From contig JAEEMK010000052.1 of NCBI GenBank assembly GCA_016283175.1, forward strand, positions 1-47,802: a stretch of 47,802 nucleotides of DNA, written 5' to 3'. The stretch's first letter is position 1. Every line of letters starts with the position of its first letter. The position numbers and the translations under genes are program-made. The DNA is from Bacteroidales bacterium (GTDB lineage Bacteria; Bacteroidota; Bacteroidia; Bacteroidales; P3). Under the pieces are notes generated by a model. It was not told the DNA's origin. It worked only from the letters and a program-made list of their open reading frames with translations, and searched no databases. Shown here in pieces: positions 13 through 41,689 of this stretch.

Positions 13-2109
13 TTACCTTTTCATCAGGCGTGATGTGATGCGGTGGCCGGAGGCGGTGACGAGGGTCAGCAGGTAGTTGGCCGGGGGCATCGAGGAGAAA
101 TCGACCGTGTAGCGGCCTTGGCCTGCGGCTTTGAGGATTATATCGTATGAGCGGCCGCTGATGTCGGTGACGAAAGCCGATGCGAGAGGTTCCTCGCCGT
201 CCCAGTCCACGGTGACGCGCTGTGCGCAGGGGTTGGGATATACCGTCACCACAGGCTCGCCGTCGCGCACCACCAGCTGAATGTCCTGCTGGCCGCCGGG
301 CCGCACATAGGGATGCATAAACGCCGTGTCGACATAACGTGCTATGAACGACTGGCTTGCGCCCGCGTTAGGCACTGTTATGTCGCCGAACTGCGCCCCG
401 CCCGATGCCAGCATCCCCGTCAGGTACAGCACACTGTCCACCAGACATACTGAGCTTGTGGCGTGGCTTGAGCTGCCGTTGGTGCCATAGTCCACAAAAT
501 ACAGTTCATTGCCGTCGTAGTCCCATACCGCGAAGCCCATACCCCATTCGTAGGCCTCGGCTTTCTCGTAGCGCTCGCCAGCGAAGTCAAGCCACCAACG
601 GTATTTAAGCTGAGTCACAAGTCTGTTATTATTCGCCACAAGGCAGGTCGAATTGCCTGCGCTTGAACCCAACGTCGGCGAAGGAATCTCACAATTCTTG
701 CACGATACAAGCCCCCCGTCATCGAGGTTGACTCTCAAAATAAGAAAACCTTTCACTTTGAGTTCTGTGGAGTCAAGCCAGCACCTTGTGTTTACAGTGT
801 CATTATAGGCAGTGGCTCCTAACAAGGCTATATTGCCATTGTTGTCAAATTGCATAACGTTAAAGCCGTCATAATACCTGTTGCTTTCATTAGGTGTGCC
901 TAAATCTCTCCTGCCAATCTGCTTCAAATATACAGGTGTCAGAATGGAATCATATTTAAGAAGAAAACCTTTGCTCTCGTCATACTTTGAAAACCGTAGG
1001 TATAAATCTTCCGAACCACCGATTTTATAACTGCAGCTGTCATTGGATATGCTTAAATCTCGTCCGAATGTTCCTAAAAGAAAAATGTTGTTGTTAAGAT
1101 CTGATTTCAAATCAAAGAGTCTACATCCCCCCAGCGAATCACAATGCTCTGGCGTAGGCTCGAAAAGAAACTGTGATGCCAGCAAACTGTCAAAATGAGG
1201 AGAAAATTTAAGAATCTGATAATTATGGCTACCTGTCGACGGTCTGACATCGGGCAGCGGCACGTAGAAATATCGCTTGCCGTCAACATAAAACCGTAGA
1301 CCACCAATTATAGGATTGCTTATGTCGTATTGAACATTTCTTCCTTCAATCGAATCGTACACAGAAACATATTCTGTCATTGTCCTGATAACTATTATAT
1401 TTCCATTGTTGTCTATCGTAAAAGGCGAATCGTCGCTATATAAAGGGTAGTTCCGGTAAAGTCCACTATACTCGAACAAGTCTCCATTTCTGTCACACGG
1501 CGCAACAGAAAGCCAATGCGTCTCTTTTGGGGTTCCATCGTAATCCAATAAAACATACGCAGAAACGACTCTAGTACGAGCATAATCTAAAGTGTCTCCA
1601 TTATAGACCAAATTTTGCCCATAAACAAGAGTCCCGTTAGAATCATAATAACATAACCTAAATAGCGTGTCTAGGAAGAATGTATATGCGTTAATACTGT
1701 TTGCGAAAAGTCCGACCCTGTTTACAAAACAAGCCACAGCTGAATCCCCGACTGATTGAATGTTGCCGAATACAGTTTTAAAACTATTATTTGAATTTAC
1801 AACCTTGCTCCATTTTAAGTCACCGTCAGGTGTGATTCCTCCTATCACGATGCTTGGGGTGTTCCAATACGACCCATAAGCCGTAAAAGGAAGGAATCTA
1901 TTGCCGCCAAATCCTGCGTCTACACTACATACACCCATAAAATATAAATTTCCGGCAGAATCAACGACAGTTTGTTTAATGTTGTTCGTTGCGTTAATGC
2001 CTGTTGCTTCGCTGCCGGTATATGTCTTCACCCAGTCGAAGTACTGGGCACGGGAGAAAGACGGAATCAACAACAATAAAAGAACAATTGACAATTTGTG
2101 GTTTTTCAT
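13..2109 (-). CDS. T9SS type A sorting-domain secreted protein, 698 aa
   Basis: An N-terminal signal peptide (Lys/His start, Leu/Ile core, ending near SRAQ, about residue 22) and a C-terminal domain of about 75 residues starting at VVTVYPNPCAQ are seen. The latter has the usual features of a T9SS type A sorting domain: YPNP, a DISGR-like turn, LP/MPPANYLL and a basic end (RLMKR). The middle has repeated motifs of the kind D.NGNI..L/IVIR found in secreted SBBP or propeller-like proteins, but I cannot name a family with confidence. The protein is expected to be exported by Sec and then secreted or surface-attached by T9SS. The gene is transcribed away from the 2110-2769 region. Oddity: the 3' quarter (about nt 13-700) is GC-rich, while the 5' three quarters are clearly AT-rich, as if the passenger and the sorting domain had different histories. 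Function is unknown. Confidence 0.85.
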   Translation of the reverse strand: MKNHKLSIVLLLLLIPSFSRAQYFDWVKTYTGSEATGINATNNIKQTVVDSAGNLYFMGVCSVDAGFGGNRFLPFTAYGSYWNTPSIVIGGITPDGDLKWSKVVNSNNSFKTVFGNIQSVGDSAVACFVNRVGLFANSINAYTFFLDTLFRLCYYDSNGTLVYGQNLVYNGDTLDYARTRVVSAYVLLDYDGTPKETHWLSVAPCDRNGDLFEYSGLYRNYPLYSDDSPFTIDNNGNIIVIRTMTEYVSVYDSIEGRNVQYDISNPIIGGLRFYVDGKRYFYVPLPDVRPSTGSHNYQILKFSPHFDSLLASQFLFEPTPEHCDSLGGCRLFDLKSDLNNNIFLLGTFGRDLSISNDSCSYKIGGSEDLYLRFSKYDESKGFLLKYDSILTPVYLKQIGRRDLGTPNESNRYYDGFNVMQFDNNGNIALLGATAYNDTVNTRCWLDSTELKVKGFLILRVNLDDGGLVSCKNCEIPSPTLGSSAGNSTCLVANNNRLVTQLKYRWWLDFAGERYEKAEAYEWGMGFAVWDYDGNELYFVDYGTNGSSSHATSSVCLVDSVLYLTGMLASGGAQFGDITVPNAGASQSFIARYVDTAFMHPYVRPGGQQDIQLVVRDGEPVVTVYPNPCAQRVTVDWDGEEPLASAFVTDISGRSYDIILKAAGQGRYTVDFSSMPPANYLLTLVTASGHRITSRLMKR

Positions 2110-2450: not shown

Positions 2451-2549
2451 GGCACTTGTACAGTATATGTACAGTATATGTACAGTATATGTACGCTTTA
2501 GAAGCGTACATATACTGTACATATACTGTACATATACTGTACAAATGAC
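2451..2549. repeat. 99-bp palindrome, copy 1 of 3 (TGTACAGTATA family)
   Basis: Arms of 42 bp (2457-2498 and 2502-2543) are perfect reverse complements around a 3-nt loop, TAG. Each arm is three 11-bp units TGTACAGTATA followed by TGTACGCTT. Six more bases on each side pair in four of six positions (GGCACT against AATGAC), which matches the outer ends of copies 2 and 3. Function unknown. See copies at 15922-16020 and 32826-32924. Confidence 0.95.
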
Positions 2550-2723
2550 TATGCTGGTGCAGGGAAAAACGAGGGAAAAACGAGGGGAGAACCGGGCGGC
2601 CACGCACAAGGCTCCTCCACGCGCTCAACTGGAGCTTGTAACAATTGACAGGGAAAATACACCCTTTTTTCAGGAAAAAAATCCCAGGTGAAACGTTTTA
2701 AACGACAAATAAGCTTTTTTTCG

Positions 2724-12552: not shown

Positions 12553-15500
12553 CTATCGTACGATCAGTTTGGAAGTAGCTGACTCTTTGCCGATGTTGAC
12601 GTTCACAAGGTAAAGACCCGAGTTGAACTTGCGGCAGTTGAGGCTGTACTGATGCAGACCCTCGTTGAGGTAGCCAAGGTTCTCGCTGTGGACAAGCTTG
12701 CCATTGATGTCGTAAATCTTGACGACAGCATTGCCGCCATTGACAATGGAGAGGTCGACGCTGACTTGGTCAACAGCCGGGTTGGGATAGATGTTCATAC
12801 TGTTGTCGCCATTGTCGACGGTGGTGATGCCCAGCCAGTCGTCGCTGTCGCAAACCTCGGCGAGATTGTCAACCACATAGCTGGTATCCATAAAGATTCC
12901 GCGGCCATAGGTACCGAAGTAGATGGCGTAGGGATATTTGGTCTTGGCAAACAGATATTTGACATTGTTGACACCTTCGCGGACAGTGTAGCTCTCGCGT
13001 TTCAGGTTGTTGGTCTGCTGCACGATGGAAGTCACGGGAACGCCGTTGAACTCACCGTAGGGCTGCCAAACAGGGCTGTTGGCAGAAGCAGTGGTGAACA
13101 CACCCTTCTCGGTACCAGCATATATGGCGCCAGTGGTGCATTCAATCATAGCCGAGTAGACAGGGTCGGCAACGCCCATAGCATTGGCGCTGTTGGTAAC
13201 GTTAATATTGGTGACTGTACGGGTGCCGGGGTTGCAGGCGTTCTTGACATAAACCATATTGGCATCGTTGTTGTCATAGCCACCAAAGGTGATGACAAGG
13301 TTGTCCTGACCGTCGCGCGGGTCAACGGCAAACGAAGTAACGGGACGATTGAACCAATTGCCGTCGGCAGCAAAGATGGTATCGAAGTGAGTGATACGCG
13401 GGTTGTCGGGGAAGTTGATGGGGTCGTCCTTCGAGAAGAGCAGCTGGCTCTTATACGTCATAACGGTGTTGACATCGGTGTTGCAGTAGTCATAGAGACG
13501 GAACACAAAGCTTCTGCCTGTCGAGTCATTATAGACATTGATGAAAATGCTCTTGCCGTCGCGGCTGAAAGCGATGTTGCCGACCGAGTAGCCCTCGTCG
13601 CTGGTGTAGACGTTGACCCAGTGCATCAGTTTCTCGATGGTAGCATCGTCGCTGCTGCCAGCCTCGTTGATGTTCCACACGTTGCGGAAATAGTTGGGGG
13701 TCATATTCATATAGACAGCACCATAGCCTCTGACTGTGCGGGCGTTGACAATGGCGCGCGACACAACAGGATTGTGAACCTTGTGGTGCATTTTGTCCTT
13801 GACAAAGAACGACTCTGTGAAACGATGGTAGAAAGGATAGTCAAAGTTGGGTTTCGACTGAACGAGGATACTGTCGCCCACCTGAATGCGAGTGTTGCCG
13901 GTAAGGGGAGTCTCCTGACCATTGTGGATGTAGGTCAGATTGGTGTCAATGGTGAAGCTGATGCTGTCATTCCAAATGGTATTGTTTGTGGTCTCCCAGA
14001 TTTTGATCTGCGGAATAGCGTTGCTGCTGGAAATGATGTCCGACAGGAAAGCCTCGGCGATGGTCCAAGTCTGAGTGTTGGTATAGTCAGTATAGTCAGC
14101 GCAAGCACGACCGAAGCTAGCCGAGTTCGAGGAACCCATAGCACCCTGGAAGCTGAAACGGCCAGGCTCGGACGACACAAAGAGGGCGCGACGGGTGAAC
14201 GGCATCAACTGCTGGAAGCGCGAAGAGGCCACACCACCGCCGTTGCCAACCCACAGGATGTTGGCCAAGTGGTTCATAATCGAAGCCGTGTCGTCATCAT
14301 ACCACGAGTTGGTGGGCAGGACGCCGTCGTGAGCGTTACGCGACTGGATGAAAGGACATCCGTTGTCGATGGCACCGCCTATGAGGGAAGCATCGTTGCT
14401 GACAGCAATATGGTTGAACTGAACAGTGTTGAGACCTTTGTTGAGCGAACGGAAAGTACCGATATTGCCATTATAGTCGCAAAATACGCCAGCGTCGGTG
14501 GCATAGTAGTTCAGCCAGATGGTGTCGCCGTCCTTGATGGTCCAAGTGGGAACGATCTGGTGGATACCCGAGTGGAGGCACATCGGATTGGAATAAACAC
14601 TACCCATATAGTTGCCAGTGTTCAACTCGCTTTCAGAATACGATTCCTTGATCCACTGATAATAGCTGTTCTCCACATAGCCTTCGCCCGACCACAGCGT
14701 TGCGCCGCCGACATAGATAGACTTGTAGTTTCTGGGGTTGATGGCAATGGAGGCGTTGAGGGTACCCGGATTCTCGGCGGTGAAAGGATTGACCGTCGAG
14801 GTAGTCAGACGTGACCAGGTCTGCTGGTTCTTGGTGATGTAGACACCGTCGAGCAGACCATCCTTGTCGACCACGAGGGCATAAAAATAAGTAGTGTGGT
14901 CGTAAGTGCCGTTAGCGTTGAGGCTATGTGCTGTGTTGGCTGCCAGTTCAATGCGGCTTGACTTGCCGAAAGCGGTGTTGCTGTTGGTGATTTCAACGGC
15001 AGCAGCCTCGCCGGTGACATTACCGATGCGGTACATTTTGCCAGGAGCCGTAGCGTAGGCAATATTGTCTGCCGAAACGATAATCACATCGTGGAATTTG
15101 CCAGCCTGCACCAGCGTGGGGGCAGTGGTCCAGTCAGGATTCGAGGCATTGAGTTTCCATCTGTAAAGGCCTTCGTTGGTGGCGGCATAGATATAAAGAA
15201 AACCGTCACGCTCGAGTTCTGCCAAACGGTTGACATACGCCCAATCCGAGTTGACCGAAGGATTGGTGCTGTTTATAAGGCTGAAAGTGTTGTCGTTGAC
15301 GTTGAAAACATAGACGCCACGACCTTTGGGAGACATACGGTCGTCGTTGACACCGTGTTTCTCGACAAAGCCCTCACCCGTACCGATAAGGATGTTGTTG
15401 TTCGGGAGCTGAATCATACAGGAAATGGGGAGGGTGATTTCCATATTGTTATTCTTGTAAGGAAGATACTGCCAGTTGTCGTCGCCGGTCTTTTTGTAGA

Positions 15501-15708
15501 GACCGCCAGCCACGCCGCCGGCATAGAGAGTCGTGTGGTTGGGATCGGCCTGGTCAACGACGATGGCGCGCACGCGACCGGCGATGTTGTCGGGGCCGAT
15601 TTCGACAAGGTTGTTCTGGTAATTAGCCTTTGGTTGTGCGGATGCAAAGTGCGCTCCGCCCACAAAAGCTGCGACAATTAAGCCTAGAAGTACTTTTTTG
15701 CTTTTCAT
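12553..15708 (-). CDS. BNR/propeller-like T9SS type A secreted protein, 1051 aa
   Basis: A signal peptide (hydrophobic LLGLIVAAFVGGAHF, cleavage near ASAQ) is followed by repeats of the BNR/sortilin-propeller type, in which short beta blades read LYAGGVAGGLYKK, IYAATNEGLYRW, IYVGGATLWSGEGY, IYAGTEKGVFTT and YFGTYGRGIFMD. The last 80 or so residues form a T9SS type A sorting domain (MNIYPNPAVDQVSVDLS, IYDINGKLVHSE, SGLYLVNVN, ending SKLIVR). The protein should leave the cell through T9SS. Propeller proteins of this kind are often glycan- or protein-binding, but no catalytic residues can be assigned. The 5' end faces the 15709-16380 region with palindrome copy 2, 213 bp upstream of the ATG. The gene ends at its own terminator. 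Confidence 0.88.
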   Translation of the reverse strand: MKSKKVLLGLIVAAFVGGAHFASAQPKANYQNNLVEIGPDNIAGRVRAIVVDQADPNHTTLYAGGVAGGLYKKTGDDNWQYLPYKNNNMEITLPISCMIQLPNNNILIGTGEGFVEKHGVNDDRMSPKGRGVYVFNVNDNTFSLINSTNPSVNSDWAYVNRLAELERDGFLYIYAATNEGLYRWKLNASNPDWTTAPTLVQAGKFHDVIIVSADNIAYATAPGKMYRIGNVTGEAAAVEITNSNTAFGKSSRIELAANTAHSLNANGTYDHTTYFYALVVDKDGLLDGVYITKNQQTWSRLTTSTVNPFTAENPGTLNASIAINPRNYKSIYVGGATLWSGEGYVENSYYQWIKESYSESELNTGNYMGSVYSNPMCLHSGIHQIVPTWTIKDGDTIWLNYYATDAGVFCDYNGNIGTFRSLNKGLNTVQFNHIAVSNDASLIGGAIDNGCPFIQSRNAHDGVLPTNSWYDDDTASIMNHLANILWVGNGGGVASSRFQQLMPFTRRALFVSSEPGRFSFQGAMGSSNSASFGRACADYTDYTNTQTWTIAEAFLSDIISSSNAIPQIKIWETTNNTIWNDSISFTIDTNLTYIHNGQETPLTGNTRIQVGDSILVQSKPNFDYPFYHRFTESFFVKDKMHHKVHNPVVSRAIVNARTVRGYGAVYMNMTPNYFRNVWNINEAGSSDDATIEKLMHWVNVYTSDEGYSVGNIAFSRDGKSIFINVYNDSTGRSFVFRLYDYCNTDVNTVMTYKSQLLFSKDDPINFPDNPRITHFDTIFAADGNWFNRPVTSFAVDPRDGQDNLVITFGGYDNNDANMVYVKNACNPGTRTVTNINVTNSANAMGVADPVYSAMIECTTGAIYAGTEKGVFTTASANSPVWQPYGEFNGVPVTSIVQQTNNLKRESYTVREGVNNVKYLFAKTKYPYAIYFGTYGRGIFMDTSYVVDNLAEVCDSDDWLGITTVDNGDNSMNIYPNPAVDQVSVDLSIVNGGNAVVKIYDINGKLVHSENLGYLNEGLHQYSLNCRKFNSGLYLVNVNIGKESATSKLIVR

Positions 15709-15921: not shown

Positions 15922-16020
15922 GGCATATGTACAGTATTTGTACAGTATATGTACAGTATTTGTACGCTTCTAAAGCGTACAAATACTGTACATATACTGT
16001 ACAAATACTGTACATATGCC
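15922..16020. repeat. 99-bp perfect palindrome, copy 2 of 3 (TGTACAGTATA family)
   Basis: Two 48-bp arms (15922-15969 and 15973-16020) are perfect reverse complements around the loop CTA, which is the complement of the TAG loop of copy 1. From outside in, each arm reads GGCATA, then 11-bp units TGTACAGTATT, TGTACAGTATA, TGTACAGTATT, then TGTACGCTT. The unit variants are in the same order in both arms, so the arms match in full. Confidence 0.97.
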
Positions 16021-16380: not shown

Positions 16381-17376
16381 ATGAACGAACCTGTAAATAT
16401 CAAAGAGCTGAATGAACGCATAGAACGCGAGAGCGCCATTGTCGATGCTTTGACTATGGAGATGCGCAAAAACATTGTAGGTCAAAAACATATGGTCGAC
16501 AGTCTGATGATCGGTCTGTTGTCGAACGGCCACGTGCTGCTCGAGGGTGTCCCCGGCCTGGCCAAGACGCTGACCATCACGACGCTGGCCAAGGCCATCG
16601 ATGCCAAATTCAGCCGCATCCAGTTCACTCCCGACCTGCTGCCCGCCGACCTTGTCGGCACAATGATTTACAGTCAGAAGAGCGAGACATTCCAGGTGAA
16701 GAAAGGACCTATTTTCTCCAACTTCATCCTTGCCGACGAGATAAACCGCGCCCCCGCCAAAGTGCAGAGTGCCCTGCTCGAGGCTATGCAGGAGCGCCAG
16801 GTCACCATTGGCGAGAACACCTACAAGCTGGAGGAGCCTTTCCTGGTTATGGCAACACAGAACCCCATTGAACAGGAGGGCACCTATCCCCTGCCCGAGG
16901 CACAGGTGGACCGCTTTATGCTGAAGGTCGTCATCACCTATCCCGAGAAAGCCGAGGAACGCCAGATACTGCACCAGAGCCTTGGCGAAGGCTTCAACCG
17001 CCAGACGGCTATGATGAAACCTGCCGACATTCTGAAAGCCAGAGAGTTGGTCAAGGAGGTATATATGGACGAAAAGATTGAAAACTACATCACCGACATT
17101 ATTTTCGCCACACGCTATCCCGAGCAGTATCACCTTGAGAAACTGAAAGGTATGATAAGCTACGGTGCTTCGCCGCGCGGTTCGATAAGCCTTGCCCAGG
17201 CCTCGAAGAGCTATGCCTTTATGAAACGCCGCGGCTACGTCATCCCCGAGGATGTGCGCGCCATAGCTATGGACATACTGCGCCACCGCATCGGCCTGAC
17301 CTACGAAGCTGAAGCCGAGAACGTGAAGAGCGAGGAAATAGTCAACGAGATACTCAACCGCGTCGACGTTCCCTGA
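16381..17376 (+). CDS. MoxR family AAA+ ATPase, 331 aa (Bat operon)
   Basis: This is a MoxR-type AAA+ ATPase: Walker A GVPGLAKT at residues 56-63, Walker B ILADE ending at residue 120 with the family-typical INRAPAKVQSALLEAM after it, and the sensor-1 stretch ATQNPIEQEGTYPLPEAQ, then the lid domain. MoxR ATPases act with VWA-domain partners as chaperones for assembly or maturation of protein complexes; here the partners are the DUF58, BatA and BatB proteins directly downstream. The length is normal. The start at ATG 16381 agrees with family N-termini. It is the first gene of the block, and the next gene follows after 50 bp. The long antisense frame over this gene is a shadow. Confidence 0.97.
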   Translation: MNEPVNIKELNERIERESAIVDALTMEMRKNIVGQKHMVDSLMIGLLSNGHVLLEGVPGLAKTLTITTLAKAIDAKFSRIQFTPDLLPADLVGTMIYSQKSETFQVKKGPIFSNFILADEINRAPAKVQSALLEAMQERQVTIGENTYKLEEPFLVMATQNPIEQEGTYPLPEAQVDRFMLKVVITYPEKAEERQILHQSLGEGFNRQTAMMKPADILKARELVKEVYMDEKIENYITDIIFATRYPEQYHLEKLKGMISYGASPRGSISLAQASKSYAFMKRRGYVIPEDVRAIAMDILRHRIGLTYEAEAENVKSEEIVNEILNRVDVP

Positions 17377-31009: not shown

Positions 31010-32566
31010 TTACGAAACAGGCATTCTACGGTCAAGTCCGAACGTCATCGGGGAGACTTTCAGTTGTGGTGCGAACTGCAGGCGTTTCCATTCGTTTATT
31101 TTCACTTTGCGCATCACCTCGTTGACCAGTTCAGCATCATAGCCTTCTTCGACGATTTCGTCTGCCGACATCTGTTCTTCGATGTAAAGATTCAGTATTG
31201 CATCGAGCACGGCATAGTCGGGGAGCGAATCGCTGTCCTTTTGTCCCGGGCGCAATTCTGCAGAAGGCGCCTTGTGTATTGAGTTCCAAGGTATAATCTC
31301 GCCATCACGGTTTATCCATTCCGAGAGCTGGTAGACTTCTGTTTTATAAAGGTCGCCAATCACCGACAGTGCACCGCAGCTGTCGCCATAGAGAGTACCG
31401 TAGCCCATTGCCGCTTCGCTTTTGTTGGTAGTGTTGAGTACAAGTGCTCCAAACTTGTTGGCATACGACATCAGAATAGTGCCGCGGATGCGAGCCTGCA
31501 TATTTTCCTCGGTTACATCCTCTGCACGGTCGCCGAAGACAGGTTTCATAGTCTTGCGGAGAGCGTCGAAACAGTCTTTGATGGGAACGATATCGTAACC
31601 GATGCCGAGATTCTTTGCCAAATCCTCTGCATCGCGTACCGAATGGTCGGTGGAATACTGCGAAGGCATAAGGATGCCGTGTACATTTTCAGGGCCCAAG
31701 GCGGCTACCGCCAAAGCGCAAACCAACGCCGAGTCGATACCGCCGCTGAGGCCTATGACGGCGCGCTGCAGTCTGTTTTTGGAGAAATATTCGCTGATAC
31801 CCATCACCAAAGCCTTGTAAACCAGCTCAACAGCCTCGGGTTTTTCATCCTCGCACTCGGTGAGCAACTGCAGGTCGACAGAGGCGCTATGTTCTTCAAA
31901 ATAAGGGAACTGGCAAAGCACGGAGCCTGCGGCGTTCATTGCTAGTGAACCGCCGGCAAAGAGGAAGGAACCTTCGCCACCGATACGGTTGACGAAGACG
32001 AGGGAGGCGTTGAGGTTTTCGACGGTTTTATGCATACGGTAGCGGATGCTGTATGGTTTGTTGTAGTCGAAGACGTTGCATCCGCAGCAAACGATGATGT
32101 CAGGTTGTTCGCCGTGTCCGCGGGTCAGTTCCTTCAGGTCTTCGTAGAAGCCGATAGCGATCTGCTGTCCTTGGAAATTAAGCGACTGTACACCTTCGCC
32201 CCGGACAAAATACTTTTGTTCGTCAGGAGCGAGATATTTTTTTGTCACGATGGCCCTGATGGCGCAATTCTGAACAAAAACGATGGCGTTGCAAAGGCCC
32301 TTGTCCTGAATTTGCAGTGGCAGTCCGACGAGGAAGGCGCGGTGTTCAGAGCATTGGACGAGCTGTTGCAGAGCGGCCTGTGCGCGTTTTTGTATGTCGT
32401 TGTAAGCCGCCGAAGCGAAAAGGGGGTAACCACAGAGAGTGCAAGCCGGAAAGACCGTCAGAAGGGCTTCGCGCGATTCCTCGGTGTCGAGTTCAGCCAT
32501 TATCCATTTAAGGTTTTCTTCGGGATTGTTGGTGACGACATTATGCTGTACTATATGAACGTTCAT
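31010..32566 (-). CDS. nadE: NAD(+) synthetase with degenerate glutamine-amidase domain, 518 aa
   Basis: The C-terminal half is the NAD synthetase/N-type ATP pyrophosphatase: P-loop SGGIDS at 274-279, then MPSQYSTDHS, GTLYGDSCGALSVIGDLYKT and PSAELRPGQKDSDSLPDY, so nicotinate adenine dinucleotide amidation to NAD is secure. The N-terminal half (about 1-230) is a nitrilase/CN-hydrolase fold, which in glutamine-dependent NadE releases ammonia. Its catalytic Glu-Lys-Cys triad is broken: the usual FPE is FPA (Ala 41), the usual ICED is FYED (Tyr 141), and only the Lys (109, KKYL) remains. The enzyme would thus use free ammonia or ammonia from another source. The length is usual for two-domain NadE with a shortened amidase part. 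The helicase gene follows 23 bp later. Confidence 0.95.
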   Translation of the reverse strand: MNVHIVQHNVVTNNPEENLKWIMAELDTEESREALLTVFPACTLCGYPLFASAAYNDIQKRAQAALQQLVQCSEHRAFLVGLPLQIQDKGLCNAIVFVQNCAIRAIVTKKYLAPDEQKYFVRGEGVQSLNFQGQQIAIGFYEDLKELTRGHGEQPDIIVCCGCNVFDYNKPYSIRYRMHKTVENLNASLVFVNRIGGEGSFLFAGGSLAMNAAGSVLCQFPYFEEHSASVDLQLLTECEDEKPEAVELVYKALVMGISEYFSKNRLQRAVIGLSGGIDSALVCALAVAALGPENVHGILMPSQYSTDHSVRDAEDLAKNLGIGYDIVPIKDCFDALRKTMKPVFGDRAEDVTEENMQARIRGTILMSYANKFGALVLNTTNKSEAAMGYGTLYGDSCGALSVIGDLYKTEVYQLSEWINRDGEIIPWNSIHKAPSAELRPGQKDSDSLPDYAVLDAILNLYIEEQMSADEIVEEGYDAELVNEVMRKVKINEWKRLQFAPQLKVSPMTFGLDRRMPVS

Positions 32567-32825: not shown

Positions 32826-32924
32826 GTCATATGTACAGTATATGTACAGTACTTGTACAGTATATGTACGCTTCAGAAGCGTACATATACTGTACATATA
32901 CTGTACAAGTACTGTACAAATGCC
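32826..32924. repeat. 99-bp imperfect palindrome, copy 3 of 3 (TGTACAGTATA family)
   Basis: It has the same design as copies 1 and 2: GTACGCTT-CAG-AAGCGTAC core, three 11-bp units per arm and outer ends that pair with the GGCA-type flank. The variant unit TGTACAGTACT is second from outside in the left arm (starts 32843) but outermost in the right arm, so unit order differs between arms and four base pairs mismatch. The 42-bp arms are 32832-32873 and 32877-32918. Confidence 0.93.
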
Positions 32925-33442: not shown

Positions 33443-33607
33443 TAGCCTTGTGGCAATATGGGTAGCAGGGCTGCGGGTTTGTATTGAGGGGAACAGGGTG
33501 TGCTGAAAGAAAAAAGGTGGTTGATGTAGTTTTTTGGTTTGTTGTTTCGTTTTATATATTAATTAGAATTGTTTTCCGTTAAAATTTTGAAAAAAAATTT
33601 TGTTTTT

Positions 33608-36600
33608 ATGAAATTCAAATTGTCTGCTGTTTTGATTGCTGCGATGCTGTATGCGTCGGTGGGCTATGCTCAGGATTGGTATGCTACGGTGCCATATGAA
33701 TGCGGTTTTGAGAATGACGTCGAGAATGGTGCGTGGATGTTGCTTAACGGTGACTCGACCGTTGTGAACAAGTGGTATATCGACACTGCCGTTGCGCACT
33801 GTGGAGATGGTGCCGGGTCGGTGATGTGCGGGAAGTCGCTCTATGTGTCGTCGTCGGGAGGATATACGTACAGTTATGACAACAGTGTTGTTTCGCGCGT
33901 GATTGCCTACCGCGATTTTGCTTTTGGACAGGGTACGTATGTTGTTTCGTTCGACTGGATGGGCGTTGGCGAGCGAGATTGCGATATGCTGATAGCTGCG
34001 CTGGTGCCTGCGAGCGACACGACGCCCCTGTATGGCGGCAGTGAGTTGCCACGCGGAGTGAGTGCGTGGTCGCTGCCCGAGGGATGGATAAGTCTAGGCG
34101 GCGACGGTATTGGCACTGGTTTGAGCGGTGCGGGCGTGTGGCGAAGAAGTGAGAGTATGGTGGAGATCGGTGCGGCTAATGATCCGTCGGCTGGTGCAGT
34201 TCACTACAGGCTTGTCTTTATCTGGACGAACGACTATGCGGGAGGAGAGGATATGCCTGCAGCGGTGGACAACATTGCGATAAGAGAGGTCACGTGTATG
34301 CCGCCTGTTGCACTGAGTGCTCTGCAGGGTGTTTATTCGATGACGCTGAGCTGGCAAGCTGTGGGCGGTGAGAATGGCTGGCTGGTTGGTGTGGAGGATA
34401 CTGCCACCGTCGGGAACGAGATGTGGACTGCTGTGCCGACGATAACGGTTGCGGGTCTTCAGCCGAACACTGGATATGAGTTTGCTGTCCGTGCTGTTTG
34501 CGGCGACGGCGACACGAGTTTTGCGACGCGGATTGTTGCGACCACAGGTGCAACGATACCATACTATGAGGATTTCGACAATACAACGGAGGCTTTTCCC
34601 GGAGGATGGAACTTTGTGCCGACGGGCGATTCGGCCTATGCGACGATGCAATATGCACCCCGCATCGAGGGTGGAAGGCTGGAAACGAGAGGTTTTGGCT
34701 ATATTGTGTTGCCGACGGTGGACAGCGACATAGACACGCTGCGTCTTTCTTTCACCCACGGCACTCCCTACAGCCATATGTCGACGGAGCCGATGCCACT
34801 TGTTGTGGGAGTGATGGAGGCTGGTGTTTTCACGCCGGTAGACACTATAAACGACCCACGAGGCGGCACTTTCACGAGGAATGTTTATTTCGCAGGCTAT
34901 CAGGGCAGTGGTCGGAACATTGCGTTTTACAGCAGTTCGGCGGACCCGGAAGTGCACTATGCAACACACTATATAGACAACGTGAAGCTGGATTTTCTGC
35001 CCTCCTGTTTTCCGGTGGCAGACGCCACTGCGGTAGCCGACTCGAGTTCAATCACTGTGAGTTGGAATGCTTTGTTCGGCTCGTCGATGTGGGAGCTGAC
35101 CTTTGCGGATAGCGACGGAGCAACGGTCGTTGACACTGTCACTTCGAGCACGTCGGTGACGATCGGAGGTCTGGCTGGCAATACGGAATACCATTATGCT
35201 GTTCGCACTGTGTGCGGTGACAGCGACACGAGCGAGGCGACACTGGGCAGGATACGGACAGAGTGTTCGTCGGTGCCCAATGCCGAATTGCCCTATAGTT
35301 ATGGTTTCGAGGACGAGGATGGTGCGGGGCTGTGCTGGAGAGGGTATGCGAGTTCGTCGTTTTACGAGCCACATATGCTGTACGGCACTGCGCACACGGG
35401 GGGCAGCAGCTATGGTTTGAGTTCGTCGGTTAACGACTATTCATATGTTACACTGCCACTTTTTCAGGATGCGCCATCTTCGTTGATGGTCTCGCTATGG
35501 ATGCGCAGTGCGAACAACGGTGGCGGCAGTATTGTTGTCGGCGTTATGGACGATCCTTCGAATATCGGCACATTCACTGCTGTCGACACGATAGTCTGCA
35601 GCGGTACGGCGATGGAGTTCTTTGAGGTTCCGCTGAGCGGCTATAGCGGCACAGGTCGCAACATAGCGCTGCTATGCGGTTCGGGCAGTGCCAACAGTGT
35701 CTGTATTGACGATGTCAGTGTTGAGACAACGCCACTGTGCAGTAGAGTGCGCAGCCTTGAGATACCTATTGTCACTGCGGGTGCGGCCCTTGTGCAATGG
35801 GGCACGGGTCGCATTGGTGAATACCAGGGTGCCGAGGTTCAAACTCGCGAAGAGATGTCGGATGCGTGGACGAGTTATTTCACCGGCGGAACGGAGTATC
35901 TGCTCACCAACTTGAACCACAACACACGCTACGAGGTGCGAGTGCGAGCCATTTGCGGTAACGACGAGGCTTCGCTGTGGACAGGCACAACATTCACTAC
36001 GGCGATGACAAACTGCAACCAGATAGATTCCACGACGCTAGCGACGGACACGATCAGCGGTATCAACAATGCGAACCATTTCGAGTTTCCCGTCCACAAC
36101 TGGCGCAACTATTCATTCTCGGAGCAGCTTTTTACCGCTGTAGAGATTGACACGGCCGGCTCGTTGAGCGCCATCGAGTTCTTCTATGCTTCCGACACGC
36201 TTCCTATGACGGCCAAAGACAGCTGTATGATATATTTGGGTGCGACATCGCTCAGTACGTTGAGCAGTTCCGATTTCGTGGATCCATCCGATATGACACT
36301 CGTATACAGCGGTCCGCTTAACTGCACCTATGGCTGGAACACATTTGCATTCAACCGCAGTTTCTTCAATTACGACGGTCGCAGCAATCTTGTCATTGCC
36401 GTTGTCGACTATTCGGGAGCTGCACACAATCAGAATTACCGTTTTGCCTGTCATTCCGCCACTGGCAAGGCGATATCCTTCTTCAGCGACAACGAAACCT
36501 TCGACAACTACCTGCTTATGCAGCACCAGGAGTATCCGTATCGCAACAACATAGTACTTCATACGTCCGAATGCGGCGCTGAAAGCGAATGCTATCCGCC

Positions 36601-39600
36601 TATGGTTTTCGTCGGAGGGATTGGATCCGACTCGGTCGATTTCACCCTTATACCCGGTGGCTACGAAACAGTATGGGAGATATACTACAAAAGCATTGGC
36701 GAAGAAGACTTCACAAGCCAGGGGTCAACCACCCAGCACCACTATACAATAAACAACCTGGAGCCATCCACGACATACACCATCCGTATAATTGGCGGCT
36801 GTGAGGACAGTGCCTACAGCGATATAACCATTACCACCAAGTGTCTTGCACAATCGCTGCCCTACCACGAAGACTTTTCCTCCTGGCCGACAGGTGCATC
36901 TCCGATTGTCCCTTCCTGCTGGTACAAATACAGCACACTGGGAGTCAATACTCCATATATATATCCCTGGAGTGTGGCTGGTCAACAATCGGTGCTCTAT
37001 CTGTTTTCCAACGAGGAGAGTTACAGTTATGTCGCTATGCCAAATCTTAATGCTGCCATCGACTCGCTTCAAGTAAACTTCAAAATCTTCCGCGAACCCA
37101 ACGCCAGCAATGCCGTCACTGGCAATCACCCTCTTGTTGTGGGTGTTATGTCCGACGTTGACGATATCGCCAGCTTCTATCCCATTGACACCATCGTCAC
37201 AACGCAGACAGGCGTTTGGGAGCAAATAGAGCTTCCTCTCAACGCAATGGCTGCCGACAGCAACCTATCCGTCGAGCGGTTCGAAGCCCTGCGCAACGGA
37301 CACATCGCCTTCCTCTCGCCCGACAGCATATACAGCCGTCCCTATATCGACGAAATAACTGTCGACTACATACCACGATGCCCGCATCCAACGTTCATCT
37401 CCGTCGATCAGAATCTCAGCACACCCGACAGCGTATACCTTTACTGGGACGACAACTCCATAAGCGCTGGCTTCATCCTGACCATCCTCAGCGGTGAGGA
37501 CACCATTGCCGAATATGGCAATCTTCCGATGCCACATTGCATTGTCGGTGGTCTCAACGCATCAATGGTTTATACCGCCATTGTTCGCGGCATCTGTGGG
37601 GAATGGAACGACAACGACATACTCCTCAGAACCGATACCAGTACAGCTATTTCGGCCGATTTCCGCACCCCTTGCGGCATAATCAAACATTCGCCTTGGA
37701 GAGAGGGCTTCGAGCTAAACACCGTGGGCAACCAGTTCTATGCAGGCTTTGCCAAATGCTGGAGCCGCATTACGGATTCTTGCGACTACTACGGAATTCC
37801 ATACGTTTCCAACGATGCGCCTTATGGTGATGTCCATAACGGTTTCCGCGGTATGGCTTGGGCAGCAGGTTCCAACAGCCTATACGGCGACTACCAGTAC
37901 ATAGTCACACCGGAAATAGACACCGCAGCTCTTCACATCAACCAACTGGAACTCAGTTTCTGGGCGCGGTCCTATAGCAGCATCCAGCGACCGACGTTCA
38001 TAATTGGCGTGATGGACAACAACGACAATACAGGAGCTTCATTCACCGCCGTCGACACCGTAGTTATAGACGGAAGAACCACCTGGCAGAAGTACACCGT
38101 ATACTTCGACAATTACAATGGTCCCGGAACACACATCGCCCTCAAAGCCGAACGTCCTGAATCTGAATGGGGAGCCGGTATCGACGACATCGAATTACGC
38201 TTTGCGCCCCTCTGTCCGCCGGTTACCGACATCACAGCCACAAACATAGACACTAACTCGCTCTCCATCGCCTGGAACGACCACTCCTCGGCCATCTCCT
38301 GGGACATCATATACGTTCCACACGGCCACGATCCCGCCAGCGGAACCTATACAATCAGCTATTCTACCTCGCTCACAATCAACGGTCTCAATCCTTCAAC
38401 CACCTACGACATCTATGTGCGACCCGTTTGCGGAGACGAAGCCGCTTTCACAATGGCCACCTTCACCACCGCAGACCCATACTATGAGATTCCTTTCTAC
38501 TGCAACTTCTCCAACTACGAGGAGAATGTCAAGTGGAACTTTAGTAACGGCCAGCACGTCAATGCGTGGGTCATTGGCTCCGCAATAGGCAATGGCGATG
38601 TCAACTCGCTTTACATTTCGCAGGATGGCGGCACAAGCAATACCTACGACCGCGACGTGTCAGGTATCAGCTACGCATACGTCAACCTCAATTTCACGGA
38701 CACCGGCAACTACAATTACCGTTTCGATTGGCGCAGCAACGGGCAGTACGATTTTGACTACCTGCGCGTGGCTCTCGCTCCCATCACGTTCTCACCTATG
38801 GGTGGCAGCAGTATTCCTGCCGGTTTTGGTTCTACGACATTGCCGACAGGATGGATAAGCCTTGACGGAGGAAGCCAACTTTATGGCGACACCAATGGCT
38901 GGACAACCATCGAATGTGAGGTTCACATCACCACTCCCGGCATCTATCGTATGCTTTTTGCCTGGACCGACCAGCATATTGCTGTGGGACATCAAAGCCC
39001 GGCAGCCATCGACAACGTCGTGGTGCGCCGCACTTCTTGTCAAACGCCTTCCGACATCTCAATCATTCCCTTCGACGACAGCATCTATCTTTCCTGGAAC
39101 TCGAACGGCGATGAAAGCCAATGGATTGTTGCCTGTGCCGACACAACTTACATATCTCAGCAGACAACTTTATTAATCAACGGATTGACTCCCAACACCG
39201 ACTATAGCGTCAGCGTAAGAGCGTTCTGCATAGAAGGAGACACCAGTATGGCTGCCATCCGCCAGTTCCGCACGACCTGCACCCCCGTTGAACTTCCCTA
39301 CACAGAGGATTTCAACAGTGTAACCAACTCGACAACAGCCTTTACAAACGCTTTTCCAACCTGCTGGATATACCAAGTAACAGGCAGCGAGGGCACACGA
39401 CAACCTCAAATATACTATGGTTCAGTGAATGCCCACAGCGGTAATTACGCTCTCTTCATTGGCAAGATCGCCTACGTATCGATGCCGCCTATGCCGGTAC
39501 CGCTCAACCAAATAGAGCTTTCATTCTACCATCTTGTCAACAATTCAGATTATGCCATCCAAGTAGGTGTTATGGAAGGTGACGACTTCATTCCAATGGC

Positions 39601-41689
39601 CACTTTTTATGATATGGAAGAAGTATATTCCGAACATACCGTTACTTTCGAATCCTACACAGGACAAAGTCGAATAATTGCTTTCCACAATATAAACGAA
39701 GGCTTGGTTGGCGCACCCAACTTCATCGATGACATCACAATCGACTATCTACCAGAATGCTTGTCTGTGAGTAACATAACGGCTCCGGTAGTATCTACCG
39801 ACCTGATACATCTGGATTGGAGCAGTGGTGCAACGGCTCAAAGCTGGGAAATAGAGTATGGTCCTATGGGTTTCACGCTTGGAACAGGCACCACGGTTAT
39901 GGCCAACATCCACCCATTTGTAATCAGCGGACTTGACACAATGACTACCTACGACTTCTATGTTCGTACTTATTGCGGTGACACAAACTATAGCAACTGG
40001 GCAGGACCAGCACAATTCAGTACAGCTTATTGCGAAGATGCTATTTCATTTTCAAACGGACCTATGAGTTCGAGCAGCCAGTATATGCCCATCAGCACCT
40101 ACTACAGCTACTCATTGACAGAATTCATCATCGATGCTGCCGAGCTTGAGGGCCTTAATTCTATCTCCGCAATAGCATTCTACTATAACGACAATGAGAC
40201 AATGACAGTAAAGAACTCAGTCGACATCTGGCTGCAGCCGACAACGACGGCATCATTCAGCAGCGACAACAGCATAATTACACTCGATACAAATCAAGCC
40301 ATCCTCGTATACAGCGGCAATTTGAACTGTCATCAGGGTTGGAATTTCTTTGACTTCACCTCACCATATGTATGGGATGGAGTTAATAATCTGGTAGTTA
40401 TTGTCGACGACAATTCAGGTGTCGACGAAAGTGTGCCGCTTACGTTTGGCGTCGCCCAATGCAGTGGACAGAAGACCATTTCCTATTACGGTATGCTGAA
40501 CAATATCGACCCCACAAGCCCAAACATAGGATATGTTATGAAATCGCGCTTCAACGCTCGGCCCTTATTGCAACTGATTTCTTGCGGCGGCGCCTCGTGC
40601 CACGAACCAATCAACCTGGTCGCTTCCGCCATTTCTTTCGACTCAGCAAATGTCAGCTGGCAAGGTGTGTCTCACTCCTACGAAGTTTCTTTCAAAAAAA
40701 CCGACGATAGCGAATGGAGCCAACCCGTGACAGTTACCACCTCCTCAACCGCCGGATCATACACCTTCAACGACCTTAATGAAATGACACAATACGATTT
40801 TCGTGTGCGTCAATTCTGTATTAGTGGCGTTTTCTCCGAATGGGCCGAAAGTTCCTTCACCACCGCTACGCGACCCTGCTTACCCCCCACCACACCCTAT
40901 GTAACCAACGTCGGCTACGACCGCGCCACAATAGGCTGGACATCGCACAACGACCAATCGATTGCCTATATCCTTCTAAGCCACAACGCTTACGACTCTG
41001 TTATCGTTGCTGACCATAACCCCTTCACGCTCACCTCACTTGCACAGGACATCACTTACAGCGTCGCCGTCGCCGACAGTTGTACCAACAACGGCACGAC
41101 CTCCGATTACAGCAACACCGTTTCATTCACCACCGCCTCCTGTCTGCCGCCATACAATGTCAGCGTTTCATCCATTTCGGCAACATCGGCACTCGTTTCC
41201 TGGAGCGGAGACAGCCAATACTACACAATCGAATACGGCATCGGCAACTTCACACCAGGCAACGGCACAACAGTCGACAACATCAACGGCAACTCCATTA
41301 CACTCAACGGATTGACACCCGACGTCGACTATACCCTTTACATCCGTGCCAAATGCAGCGAAACTGCCTACAGCGTATGGAGTGAACGGACGACATTCCA
41401 CACCGCCACAAGCGGCATTGGTTTACAATCAGAGTCGCCAAATCCTGCTTTGGATATATCCCCAAACCCTGCAAAGGACAAGACAACCATCAACATTGTT
41501 GGCATAAACGGCGAAGTCGCTCTGACCTTGGTTGATATGAGTGGACGCATTATCAAAGAAACCACAGCATTCTGTGGCGGTGACAGCTGCACAGCAACTG
41601 TGGAACTCCGCCATCTCGCTGCCGGCACCTACTTCGTTCGTGCGTCAGCACAGGGCATCAACATCGTCCACAAGCTCGTAGTCAAATAA
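33608..41689 (+). CDS. Giant modular T9SS type A secreted protein, 2693 aa
   Basis: A signal peptide (LSAVLIAAMLYASVGYAQ) starts at ATG 33608; the frame opens 13 codons earlier without a signal. The exterior alternates beta-sandwich domains with about eleven FN3-like modules, each ending in a YxVxVRAxCG-type strand and usually bounded by Cys. Between them lie choice-of-anchor-J/MAM-like domains (PYYEDFDN, YIDNVKLDFLP, PYHEDFSSW, FIDDITIDYLP). Two domain types occur twice: one at about residues 24-230 and 1625-1810 (SLYVS, YRLVFIWTND / YRMLFAWTDQ), another at about 803-990 and 2140-2330 (LSAIEFFY / ISAIAFYY, NLVIAVVDYSG / NLVVIVDDNSG). The end (LDISPNPAKDKTTINIVG ... HKLVVK) is a T9SS type A sorting domain. 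It is likely a cell-surface adhesin; no catalytic domain is seen. Codon use changes visibly near residue 800. Confidence 0.93.
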   Translation: MKFKLSAVLIAAMLYASVGYAQDWYATVPYECGFENDVENGAWMLLNGDSTVVNKWYIDTAVAHCGDGAGSVMCGKSLYVSSSGGYTYSYDNSVVSRVIAYRDFAFGQGTYVVSFDWMGVGERDCDMLIAALVPASDTTPLYGGSELPRGVSAWSLPEGWISLGGDGIGTGLSGAGVWRRSESMVEIGAANDPSAGAVHYRLVFIWTNDYAGGEDMPAAVDNIAIREVTCMPPVALSALQGVYSMTLSWQAVGGENGWLVGVEDTATVGNEMWTAVPTITVAGLQPNTGYEFAVRAVCGDGDTSFATRIVATTGATIPYYEDFDNTTEAFPGGWNFVPTGDSAYATMQYAPRIEGGRLETRGFGYIVLPTVDSDIDTLRLSFTHGTPYSHMSTEPMPLVVGVMEAGVFTPVDTINDPRGGTFTRNVYFAGYQGSGRNIAFYSSSADPEVHYATHYIDNVKLDFLPSCFPVADATAVADSSSITVSWNALFGSSMWELTFADSDGATVVDTVTSSTSVTIGGLAGNTEYHYAVRTVCGDSDTSEATLGRIRTECSSVPNAELPYSYGFEDEDGAGLCWRGYASSSFYEPHMLYGTAHTGGSSYGLSSSVNDYSYVTLPLFQDAPSSLMVSLWMRSANNGGGSIVVGVMDDPSNIGTFTAVDTIVCSGTAMEFFEVPLSGYSGTGRNIALLCGSGSANSVCIDDVSVETTPLCSRVRSLEIPIVTAGAALVQWGTGRIGEYQGAEVQTREEMSDAWTSYFTGGTEYLLTNLNHNTRYEVRVRAICGNDEASLWTGTTFTTAMTNCNQIDSTTLATDTISGINNANHFEFPVHNWRNYSFSEQLFTAVEIDTAGSLSAIEFFYASDTLPMTAKDSCMIYLGATSLSTLSSSDFVDPSDMTLVYSGPLNCTYGWNTFAFNRSFFNYDGRSNLVIAVVDYSGAAHNQNYRFACHSATGKAISFFSDNETFDNYLLMQHQEYPYRNNIVLHTSECGAESECYPPMVFVGGIGSDSVDFTLIPGGYETVWEIYYKSIGEEDFTSQGSTTQHHYTINNLEPSTTYTIRIIGGCEDSAYSDITITTKCLAQSLPYHEDFSSWPTGASPIVPSCWYKYSTLGVNTPYIYPWSVAGQQSVLYLFSNEESYSYVAMPNLNAAIDSLQVNFKIFREPNASNAVTGNHPLVVGVMSDVDDIASFYPIDTIVTTQTGVWEQIELPLNAMAADSNLSVERFEALRNGHIAFLSPDSIYSRPYIDEITVDYIPRCPHPTFISVDQNLSTPDSVYLYWDDNSISAGFILTILSGEDTIAEYGNLPMPHCIVGGLNASMVYTAIVRGICGEWNDNDILLRTDTSTAISADFRTPCGIIKHSPWREGFELNTVGNQFYAGFAKCWSRITDSCDYYGIPYVSNDAPYGDVHNGFRGMAWAAGSNSLYGDYQYIVTPEIDTAALHINQLELSFWARSYSSIQRPTFIIGVMDNNDNTGASFTAVDTVVIDGRTTWQKYTVYFDNYNGPGTHIALKAERPESEWGAGIDDIELRFAPLCPPVTDITATNIDTNSLSIAWNDHSSAISWDIIYVPHGHDPASGTYTISYSTSLTINGLNPSTTYDIYVRPVCGDEAAFTMATFTTADPYYEIPFYCNFSNYEENVKWNFSNGQHVNAWVIGSAIGNGDVNSLYISQDGGTSNTYDRDVSGISYAYVNLNFTDTGNYNYRFDWRSNGQYDFDYLRVALAPITFSPMGGSSIPAGFGSTTLPTGWISLDGGSQLYGDTNGWTTIECEVHITTPGIYRMLFAWTDQHIAVGHQSPAAIDNVVVRRTSCQTPSDISIIPFDDSIYLSWNSNGDESQWIVACADTTYISQQTTLLINGLTPNTDYSVSVRAFCIEGDTSMAAIRQFRTTCTPVELPYTEDFNSVTNSTTAFTNAFPTCWIYQVTGSEGTRQPQIYYGSVNAHSGNYALFIGKIAYVSMPPMPVPLNQIELSFYHLVNNSDYAIQVGVMEGDDFIPMATFYDMEEVYSEHTVTFESYTGQSRIIAFHNINEGLVGAPNFIDDITIDYLPECLSVSNITAPVVSTDLIHLDWSSGATAQSWEIEYGPMGFTLGTGTTVMANIHPFVISGLDTMTTYDFYVRTYCGDTNYSNWAGPAQFSTAYCEDAISFSNGPMSSSSQYMPISTYYSYSLTEFIIDAAELEGLNSISAIAFYYNDNETMTVKNSVDIWLQPTTTASFSSDNSIITLDTNQAILVYSGNLNCHQGWNFFDFTSPYVWDGVNNLVVIVDDNSGVDESVPLTFGVAQCSGQKTISYYGMLNNIDPTSPNIGYVMKSRFNARPLLQLISCGGASCHEPINLVASAISFDSANVSWQGVSHSYEVSFKKTDDSEWSQPVTVTTSSTAGSYTFNDLNEMTQYDFRVRQFCISGVFSEWAESSFTTATRPCLPPTTPYVTNVGYDRATIGWTSHNDQSIAYILLSHNAYDSVIVADHNPFTLTSLAQDITYSVAVADSCTNNGTTSDYSNTVSFTTASCLPPYNVSVSSISATSALVSWSGDSQYYTIEYGIGNFTPGNGTTVDNINGNSITLNGLTPDVDYTLYIRAKCSETAYSVWSERTTFHTATSGIGLQSESPNPALDISPNPAKDKTTINIVGINGEVALTLVDMSGRIIKETTAFCGGDSCTATVELRHLAAGTYFVRASAQGINIVHKLVVK

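Follow-up and report, generated by a model that had tools for sequence, protein, structure and literature searches.

Dispersed and mutually spaced palindromes of phased 11-bp units in a Bacteroidales genus

Closest described systems

BIME/REP gyrase-binding sites share with the elements reported here the idea of topological sites, but their sequence and gene context are others. As characterized in excerpts of two papers, REPs are palindromic DNA scattered over intergenic sites, similar to one another in a given genome but not across species (PMC3116915, PMC3733652); the second excerpt gives them as 20–40 bp long, tagged with GTAG or CGTC and mostly situated between unidirectional and convergent ORFs (PMC3733652). 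Our elements share with REP/REPIN–RAYT systems a dispersed, intergenic, palindromic nature and a species-specific spelling, but they are 99-bp palindromes of phased 11-bp units, have ends without a GTAG or CGTC tag, prefer divergent gaps and are spaced along the chromosome. Like MITEs they are short, non-coding, inverted-repeat and high in copy; they differ in keeping a mutual spacing across families, and neither an associated transposase nor a target duplication nor, at the four sites followed, an empty site was found.

The 11-bp period itself has precedents. According to an excerpt of its description, the MerR-type protein CarH binds three or four tandem 11-bp direct repeats on one face of DNA, and the unit of the genome studied here, rotated to TATATGTACAG, fits the pattern nnnnTnnACAn given there (PMC9304148). 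CarH, however, acts at a few promoters, and by eye the TGTACGG units of the related genome G053 and the TGTCC units do not fit the pattern. In parC of the ParMRC plasmid R1, ParR binds 11-bp direct repeats that differ between families and set specificity, according to the part of the source consulted (PMC9426499). That plasmid locus lies next to parM, whereas the elements here occupy dozens of chromosomal sites, and no neighbour was named parM or parR among the 20 of 123 candidates scanned. By analogy with CarH and ParR, the elements would fit an array for a protein lining up on one DNA face.

We know of no described repeat family that combines phasing, spacing, concerted change of spelling and fixed places, and a survey of open-licence literature by title and start of abstract found no description of such elements. 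The earlier impression of an undescribed element is likewise borne out by database searches: Rfam gave no match within the window at gathering score, and a phage or plasmid origin was discarded after copy 2 matched no phage or plasmid and the exact core had no match in IMG/VR.

Three palindromes in the window

The window, a stretch of 47,802 nucleotides, comes from a 2.249-Mb draft genome of an uncultured Bacteroidales in 111 contigs (G000). It contains the following features.

Copy 1, 2451–2549, no strand: near-perfect 99-bp palindrome with four phased 11-bp units per arm
Copy 1 left outer arm, 2438–2450, no strand: imperfect inverted repeat with 2550–2562 (reverse-complement alignment)
Copy 1 right outer arm, 2550–2562, no strand: partner of 2438–2450
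Copy 1 setting: divergent pair, a T9SS-tail protein at 16–2109 (minus strand) and the next called plus-side gene, which starts at position 2770 at least
Copy 2, 15922–16020, no strand: perfect palindrome with 48-bp arms
Copy 2 setting: T9SS-tail protein at 12556–15708 (minus strand) and MoxR-type AAA protein at 16381–17373 (plus strand)
Copy 3, 32826–32924, no strand: near-perfect palindrome
Copy 3 setting: NAD synthase at 31013–32566 (minus strand) and a 2706-aa ORF at 33569–41689 (plus strand)

A preliminary description of the window had reported three elements of one length and one design, which we confirm: with up to three mismatches permitted, the core TGTACGCTTNNNAAGCGTACA was found three times (2490, 15961 and 32865), always exact, versus never in 100 shuffles. 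Eight GTAC sites, also reported, stand at identical positions in all three elements (8, 19, 30, 41, 56, 67, 78 and 89), but copy 3 has two more, ten in total. The sharp shared boundaries are accurate in that all three elements measure 99 bp, but symmetry continues past that edge into the imperfect outer inverted repeat of copy 1, and many copies in the genome have longer outer arms. Perfect palindromy belongs to copy 2 alone, copies 1 and 3 being mismatched in ends or arms.

Copy number and distribution

The source genome holds 95 core matches at up to three mismatches, 90 of them exact, and none to a reversed-pattern control, so that the expected dispersed family is present and not just three copies. 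Elements are near-identical within one genome, with dozens in this gut bacterium and in some relatives. Our core survey covered 118 genomes: the source, 70 others of the same genus and 47 of other families. Within the genus seven counts stood out (G069, 68; G045, 56; G025, 47; G053, 27; G042, 25; G049, 7; G024, 5), 45 of the 70 genomes had no match and the remaining 18 had one to three; genomes of other families had 0–4 matches and their controls 0–3. The core is also present in the Bacteroidales MAGs UBA3724 and RGIG5467, among the matches listed. The many relatives with elements speak against a family lacking relatives elsewhere, the outcome named beforehand as evidence to the contrary. Exact cores in at least five records outside Bacteroidales were set aside: there was no phased palindrome there at a score of at least 5, and their number is near that expected by chance (about four matches, given 18 fixed bases in 257 Gb).

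Arm matches in the source genome (187/184 among those listed) fit about 95 elements and leave no room for many split copies. Decayed copies with three phased GTAC away from cores were absent from 921 kb of this genome; one degenerate copy and three 39-bp mini elements were found elsewhere. The latter (GGCATATGTACAGTAT...TATATGTACATATGCC, at about 8166 of locus L227, 10289 of L228 and 4880 of L229) resemble internal palindrome deletions. In G000, G025, G042 and G045 the assemblies break at elements, many of which are no more than about 150 bp from the end of a contig (C34, C75 and C81 of G000, among others).

One architecture, many unit sequences

The elements of the window represent one of several families of a class present in many genomes of the genus. 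Units in G053 and G042 are mainly TGTACGGTATA or TGTACGCTATA, with ends GCCCGTTG; G025 has unequal arms and the core TGTACGTTTATAAAGCGTACA in 45 of 46 elements; G045 has the core TGTACGTTTACCAATTGTACA in 53 of 54. G069 carries TGTACGTTTACCAATTGTACA in 21 elements and, in 44 others, a second family with TGTCCGCTTGT units. A sequence-blind detector, combining a 48-bp palindrome with 11-bp autocorrelation and ignoring rows of N runs (best scores in three shuffles of the 921 kb: 6, −4 and −10), revealed further families at sampled loci, with units CGTTCCTATAT (G042), CGTTTAACCAT (UBA3724) and GTTATACCTTA (G134), and others less regular. Arm matches to GTTCTTCGATT numbered 518 in G029, 373 in G150, 56 in G136 and 45 in G160, with any in 14 of 119 genomes; GTTATACCTTA arms gave 138 matches in G134 and none in the eight other genomes searched. 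These counts include up to about four matches per element. The source genome has one degenerate array of the CGTTCCTATAT type (score 36), a second family at low copy, and four copies seen in G024 (L071, L075, L079 and L083) have their 11-bp units (TACCGTAGAAA, TAGCGGAGAAA) arrayed on one side only, next to a short core.

To sample the genus at random, we took one 20-kb tile from each of 20 genomes (400 kb) and found 14 palindromes of period 11 at the cut-off score of 20 or more, spread over eight tiles. Periods of 9, 10, 12 and 13 gave 4, 1, 1 and 0 palindromes, and shuffled tiles at most 4. Since 12 of the 20 tiles had no phased palindrome at score 20 and 45 of the 70 genomes had no core, it does not follow from these data that the class is universal. 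Eight 12-kb tiles from other families (96 kb) gave one detector match, which was not an array; one match in 96 kb versus 14 in 400 kb is too few to establish restriction to the genus, and the background level of the TGTAC core in other families is the better sign of it.

Helical phasing at 11 bp, noted originally for the window alone, is thus a common feature of families whose unit sequences differ, as expected of an array read on one helix face. Most units, judged by eye, include GTNC, a possible hint of a single protein family. Phasing, inverted arrangement, spacing and choice of gap stay the same, whereas spelling is free yet alike within a genome.

Gene context and spacing

All 89 copies in 921 kb of the source genome, a sample chosen around elements and annotated with our own gene calls, are intergenic. 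Dropping seven at contig edges left 82, flanked by 45 divergent, 34 tandem and three convergent gene pairs, a placement unlike that of REPs; with the size and the missing end tag, membership of a known REP family, which the preliminary description had named as a refuting outcome, is not supported on any of the three counts. On six complete contigs, elements occupied 12 of 36 divergent, 11 of 212 tandem and none of 36 convergent gaps (divergent versus tandem, P = 6.5e-6; convergent versus the rest, P = 0.09). An array or a long RNA hairpin had both been suggested; the 11-bp phasing is as expected of the former, but the latter is weakened by the avoidance of convergent and preference for divergent gaps. 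Genes usually lie 100–600 bp from an element. Neighbours, scanned for 20 of 123 candidates, are mixed (GyrB, topoisomerase, LeuRS, RpoN, PFK, FeoB, acetate kinase, PorP and others), which argues against a simple regulon. At L001 and L004 the element-side genes match GyrB and a bacterial topoisomerase, possibly by chance (two of 20 scanned neighbours).

Elements keep their distance from one another. The 35 within-contig spacings of the source genome run from 7.6 to 45.8 kb, none below 7.5 kb; under a uniform null, 14.4 would be expected below the observed minimum, and none of 20,000 simulations was as extreme. When the null was drawn from real gaps, matched for class and size, the 17 spacings on the six complete contigs included none under 10 kb versus 7.7 expected (0 of 20,000). 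Nulls for G069 and G045 were uniform. The two families of G069 (65 of 68 matches used) gave 48 spacings with a minimum of 4.8 kb (P = 0.0004; for TGTCC by itself, P = 0.013, and for TGTAC by itself, P = 0.23); adjacent elements from different families were less than 7.5 kb apart in two cases versus 4.9 expected (P = 0.09) and less than 4.7 kb apart in none versus 3.1 (P = 0.03). With a third family included (83 of 85 elements, leaving out two K copies whose contigs are of unknown length), 66 spacings contained none under 4.7 kb versus 10.5 expected (0 of 20,000). Two families in G045 gave 39 spacings with a minimum of 4.9 kb, and none of 18 elements had its nearest other-family copy within 5 kb (5.9 expected; P = 0.0005). 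Minimum spacings in G134 (8.4 kb) and G029 (5.2 kb), among the matches listed, agree. Different families within one genome also keep apart from each other. Very close pairs may be missed because drafts break at repeats; the best safeguard is G069, whose contigs number about 30.

Shared positions and replacement in place

Of 20 elements in G053, 11 had a matching gene with a G000 element no farther than 1.5 kb away, two matched without such an element and seven were unmatched in the portion of G000 examined. In G042 the figure was 11 of 22 rows, or 9 or 10 of 20 loci after allowing for the doubled loci L043/L125 and L067/L140. We scored conserved neighbouring gene pairs as holding an element in both genomes, in the query only, in G000 only or in neither, and obtained 7/1/0/21 (G053), 5/2/0/18 (G042), 7/9/1/41 (G045) and 11/5/3/67 (G069), with P of 5e-6 to 4e-4 and 5e-8. 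This association is strong, but when gaps had to measure 150 bp or more after subtraction of the element, the counts were 24/9/3/6, significant in no genome. Gap sharing as proof of conserved position is thus weakened once gap length is considered; significance is lost because elements prefer long gaps and loci were sampled mainly around elements. Gap sharing in G025 (5 of 10) consisted mostly of weak matches and was set aside.

Firmer evidence comes from sites whose DNA flanks can be aligned, as they can by eye between G053 L059 and G000 C38. Seven TGTAC sites are common to G069 and G045, with flanks 89–94% identical and one 74%; there, by eye, GGTCGTTG stands at 10 of 10 visible ends in G069 and GTCCGTTG at 7 of 10 in G045. 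Four gaps hold the TGTCC family in G069 and the TGTAC family in G000. At the locus of copy 2, arrays of different units lie upstream of the gene in nine of 30 orthologous loci and downstream in none (scores 8–90, own locus included); four of the 30 match in part and still have gene in the downstream flank, and the flanks of two are short.

Four TGTCC sites of G069, those with adjoining sequence available and hence not a random set, were followed into G045. Each carries a G045 element, two of them cut by contig ends, between flanks 84–92% identical; no empty site was found, all four being occupied in both species. At these sites GTCC is followed by GC in 31 of 34 contexts in G069 and by AG in 24 of 26 in G045, with no GC in G045, no AG in G069 and the other contexts largely flank or the ends of elements. 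Across whole genomes, TGTCCAGTCATTGACTGGACA cores number 76 in G045, 20 in G069 and one in G000, with none in five other genomes searched; the GC type accounts for 44 elements in G069 and possibly for at most two of the 56 core matches in G045. Between these species spelling has changed together while the tested places have not, which is concerted replacement in place at the sites followed. Provided that these four sites are representative, the same difference extends to hundreds of units between species whose flanks diverge by about 10%; independent point mutation would then not be credible, whereas copying between sites would.

Possible functions

We propose that the elements are spaced arrays for a dedicated, putative DNA-binding protein with a role in chromosome organisation, and that copying between sites keeps them homogeneous; we put the probability of this reading at roughly 40%. 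Each element would consist of two inverted operators with four 11-bp units in either arm, along which subunits of the putative protein might line up on one helix face. Together, the elements would form one set of chromosomal sites at least about 5–8 kb apart, mostly in divergent or upstream gaps, whichever family occupies them. Their most likely function would be to anchor, partition or organise chromosomal DNA, since a role at the level of the chromosome is easier than a regulon to square with neighbours so mixed and with a spacing that holds across families. The sequences could be kept alike by gene conversion or by insertion into existing sites; units of a new spelling, presumably fitted to an altered protein, would supplant the old ones at unchanged places. 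A narrower form, in which the elements are a bacterial counterpart of fast-evolving centromere-like DNA, with fixed sites about one per 5–25 kb whose spelling is replaced in concert throughout the genome as species diverge, in step with a changing array-binding protein and at unchanged helical architecture, we consider unlikely though worth stating. Should the elements organise the chromosome, the genus would offer many differently spelled site families on comparable chromosomes, and bacterial chromosome domains and the co-evolution of site and protein would become directly testable.

The main rival, which we regard as a real if tentative possibility, is a MITE- or REPIN-like mobile element that is non-autonomous and would depend on a putative enzyme acting in trans, with a preference for long upstream gaps, immunity spacing the copies and variants inserting into or converting old ones. 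High copy number, species-specific families, several per genome, presence or absence among relatives, the shortened 39-bp derivatives and the idiosyncratic unequal-arm form of G025, its core nonetheless so uniform, all agree with mobility, and transposition immunity, as in Mu or Tn7, would also give spacing. Immunity tied to the ends of one element, however, would not explain avoidance between families; both species have an element at each of the four followed sites; and no split-arm copy flanking a gene was seen among the arm matches listed in G000. Nor does RAYT appear to track the elements. PF01797 (RAYT) occurs in 73 of 119 genomes, yet G042, 89% complete, has 25 elements and no PF01797 match, and G001 has seven matches and no TGTAC core. 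Pointing the other way, four strong matches (G069 C12, G045 C64, G134 C78 and G025 C15) and one weak (G025 C59) lie within about 2 kb of an element. The first, the one inspected, is a RAYT-type gene of 149 aa (L294, 5100–6000) with GAGCCTCGAAGAGGCTC repeats on both sides, its own REP/RAYT unit 1.4 kb from the phased element. A RAYT link is supported neither by distribution nor by these unrelated repeats. If mobile, the elements would show in-place replacement of dispersed elements and spacing across families.

Supercoil-absorbing cruciforms, palindromes at divergent promoters that would extrude under negative supercoiling as topological buffers or borders, seem improbable to us. The divergent preference agrees with them, as does the strong hairpin of copy 2 (−53.4 kcal/mol as single-stranded DNA, z −19.8, matched by 0 of 200 shuffles). 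So do the arms of three genomes: median identity is 0.98–1.00 in G000, G053 and G042, and agreement at variable positions exceeded all 2,000 shuffles (387 of 492 versus a mean of 321; 93 of 100 versus 67.5; 89 of 105 versus 69). In G025, G045 and G069, by contrast, median identity is 0.75–0.81 and agreement was not above all shuffles (30 of 140, mean 74; 78 of 136, mean 81; 268 of 336, shuffles up to 284). The elements usable in this test were 86 of 89 in G000, 82 of which passed a 75% arm filter, compared with 12 of 19 in G069 and 8 of 15 in G045. G025 has unequal arms, and those of G045 and G069 are often truncated, so that some elements do without complete symmetry. Palindromy is thus the rule with exceptions, and by itself it would need neither 11-bp phasing nor a single spelling per genome.

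Least probable, despite the upstream position and the period shared with CarH-type operators, is a role as regulatory sites in a large regulon or as transcribed RNA hairpins that act on adjoining genes, given neighbours that are mixed (20 of 123 scanned) and usually 100–600 bp away, a mutual spacing for which a regulon offers no reason, and the avoidance of convergent gaps.

Adjoining repeats

Other repeats lie close to the elements. At 2240–2293 of the window a hairpin, GGTACGCAGGC...GCCTGCGTACC, adjoins copy 1, and a similar one lies by the element of L031, possibly a separate REP-like repeat. A dispersed repeat, CCACGCACAAGGC...CCACGCGCTC...GGAGCTTGT, abuts several elements (window, about 2594–2640; L228, L229, L007, L010 and L032), and at L228 and L229 it terminates in CATATGCCAGGG, as the element does.
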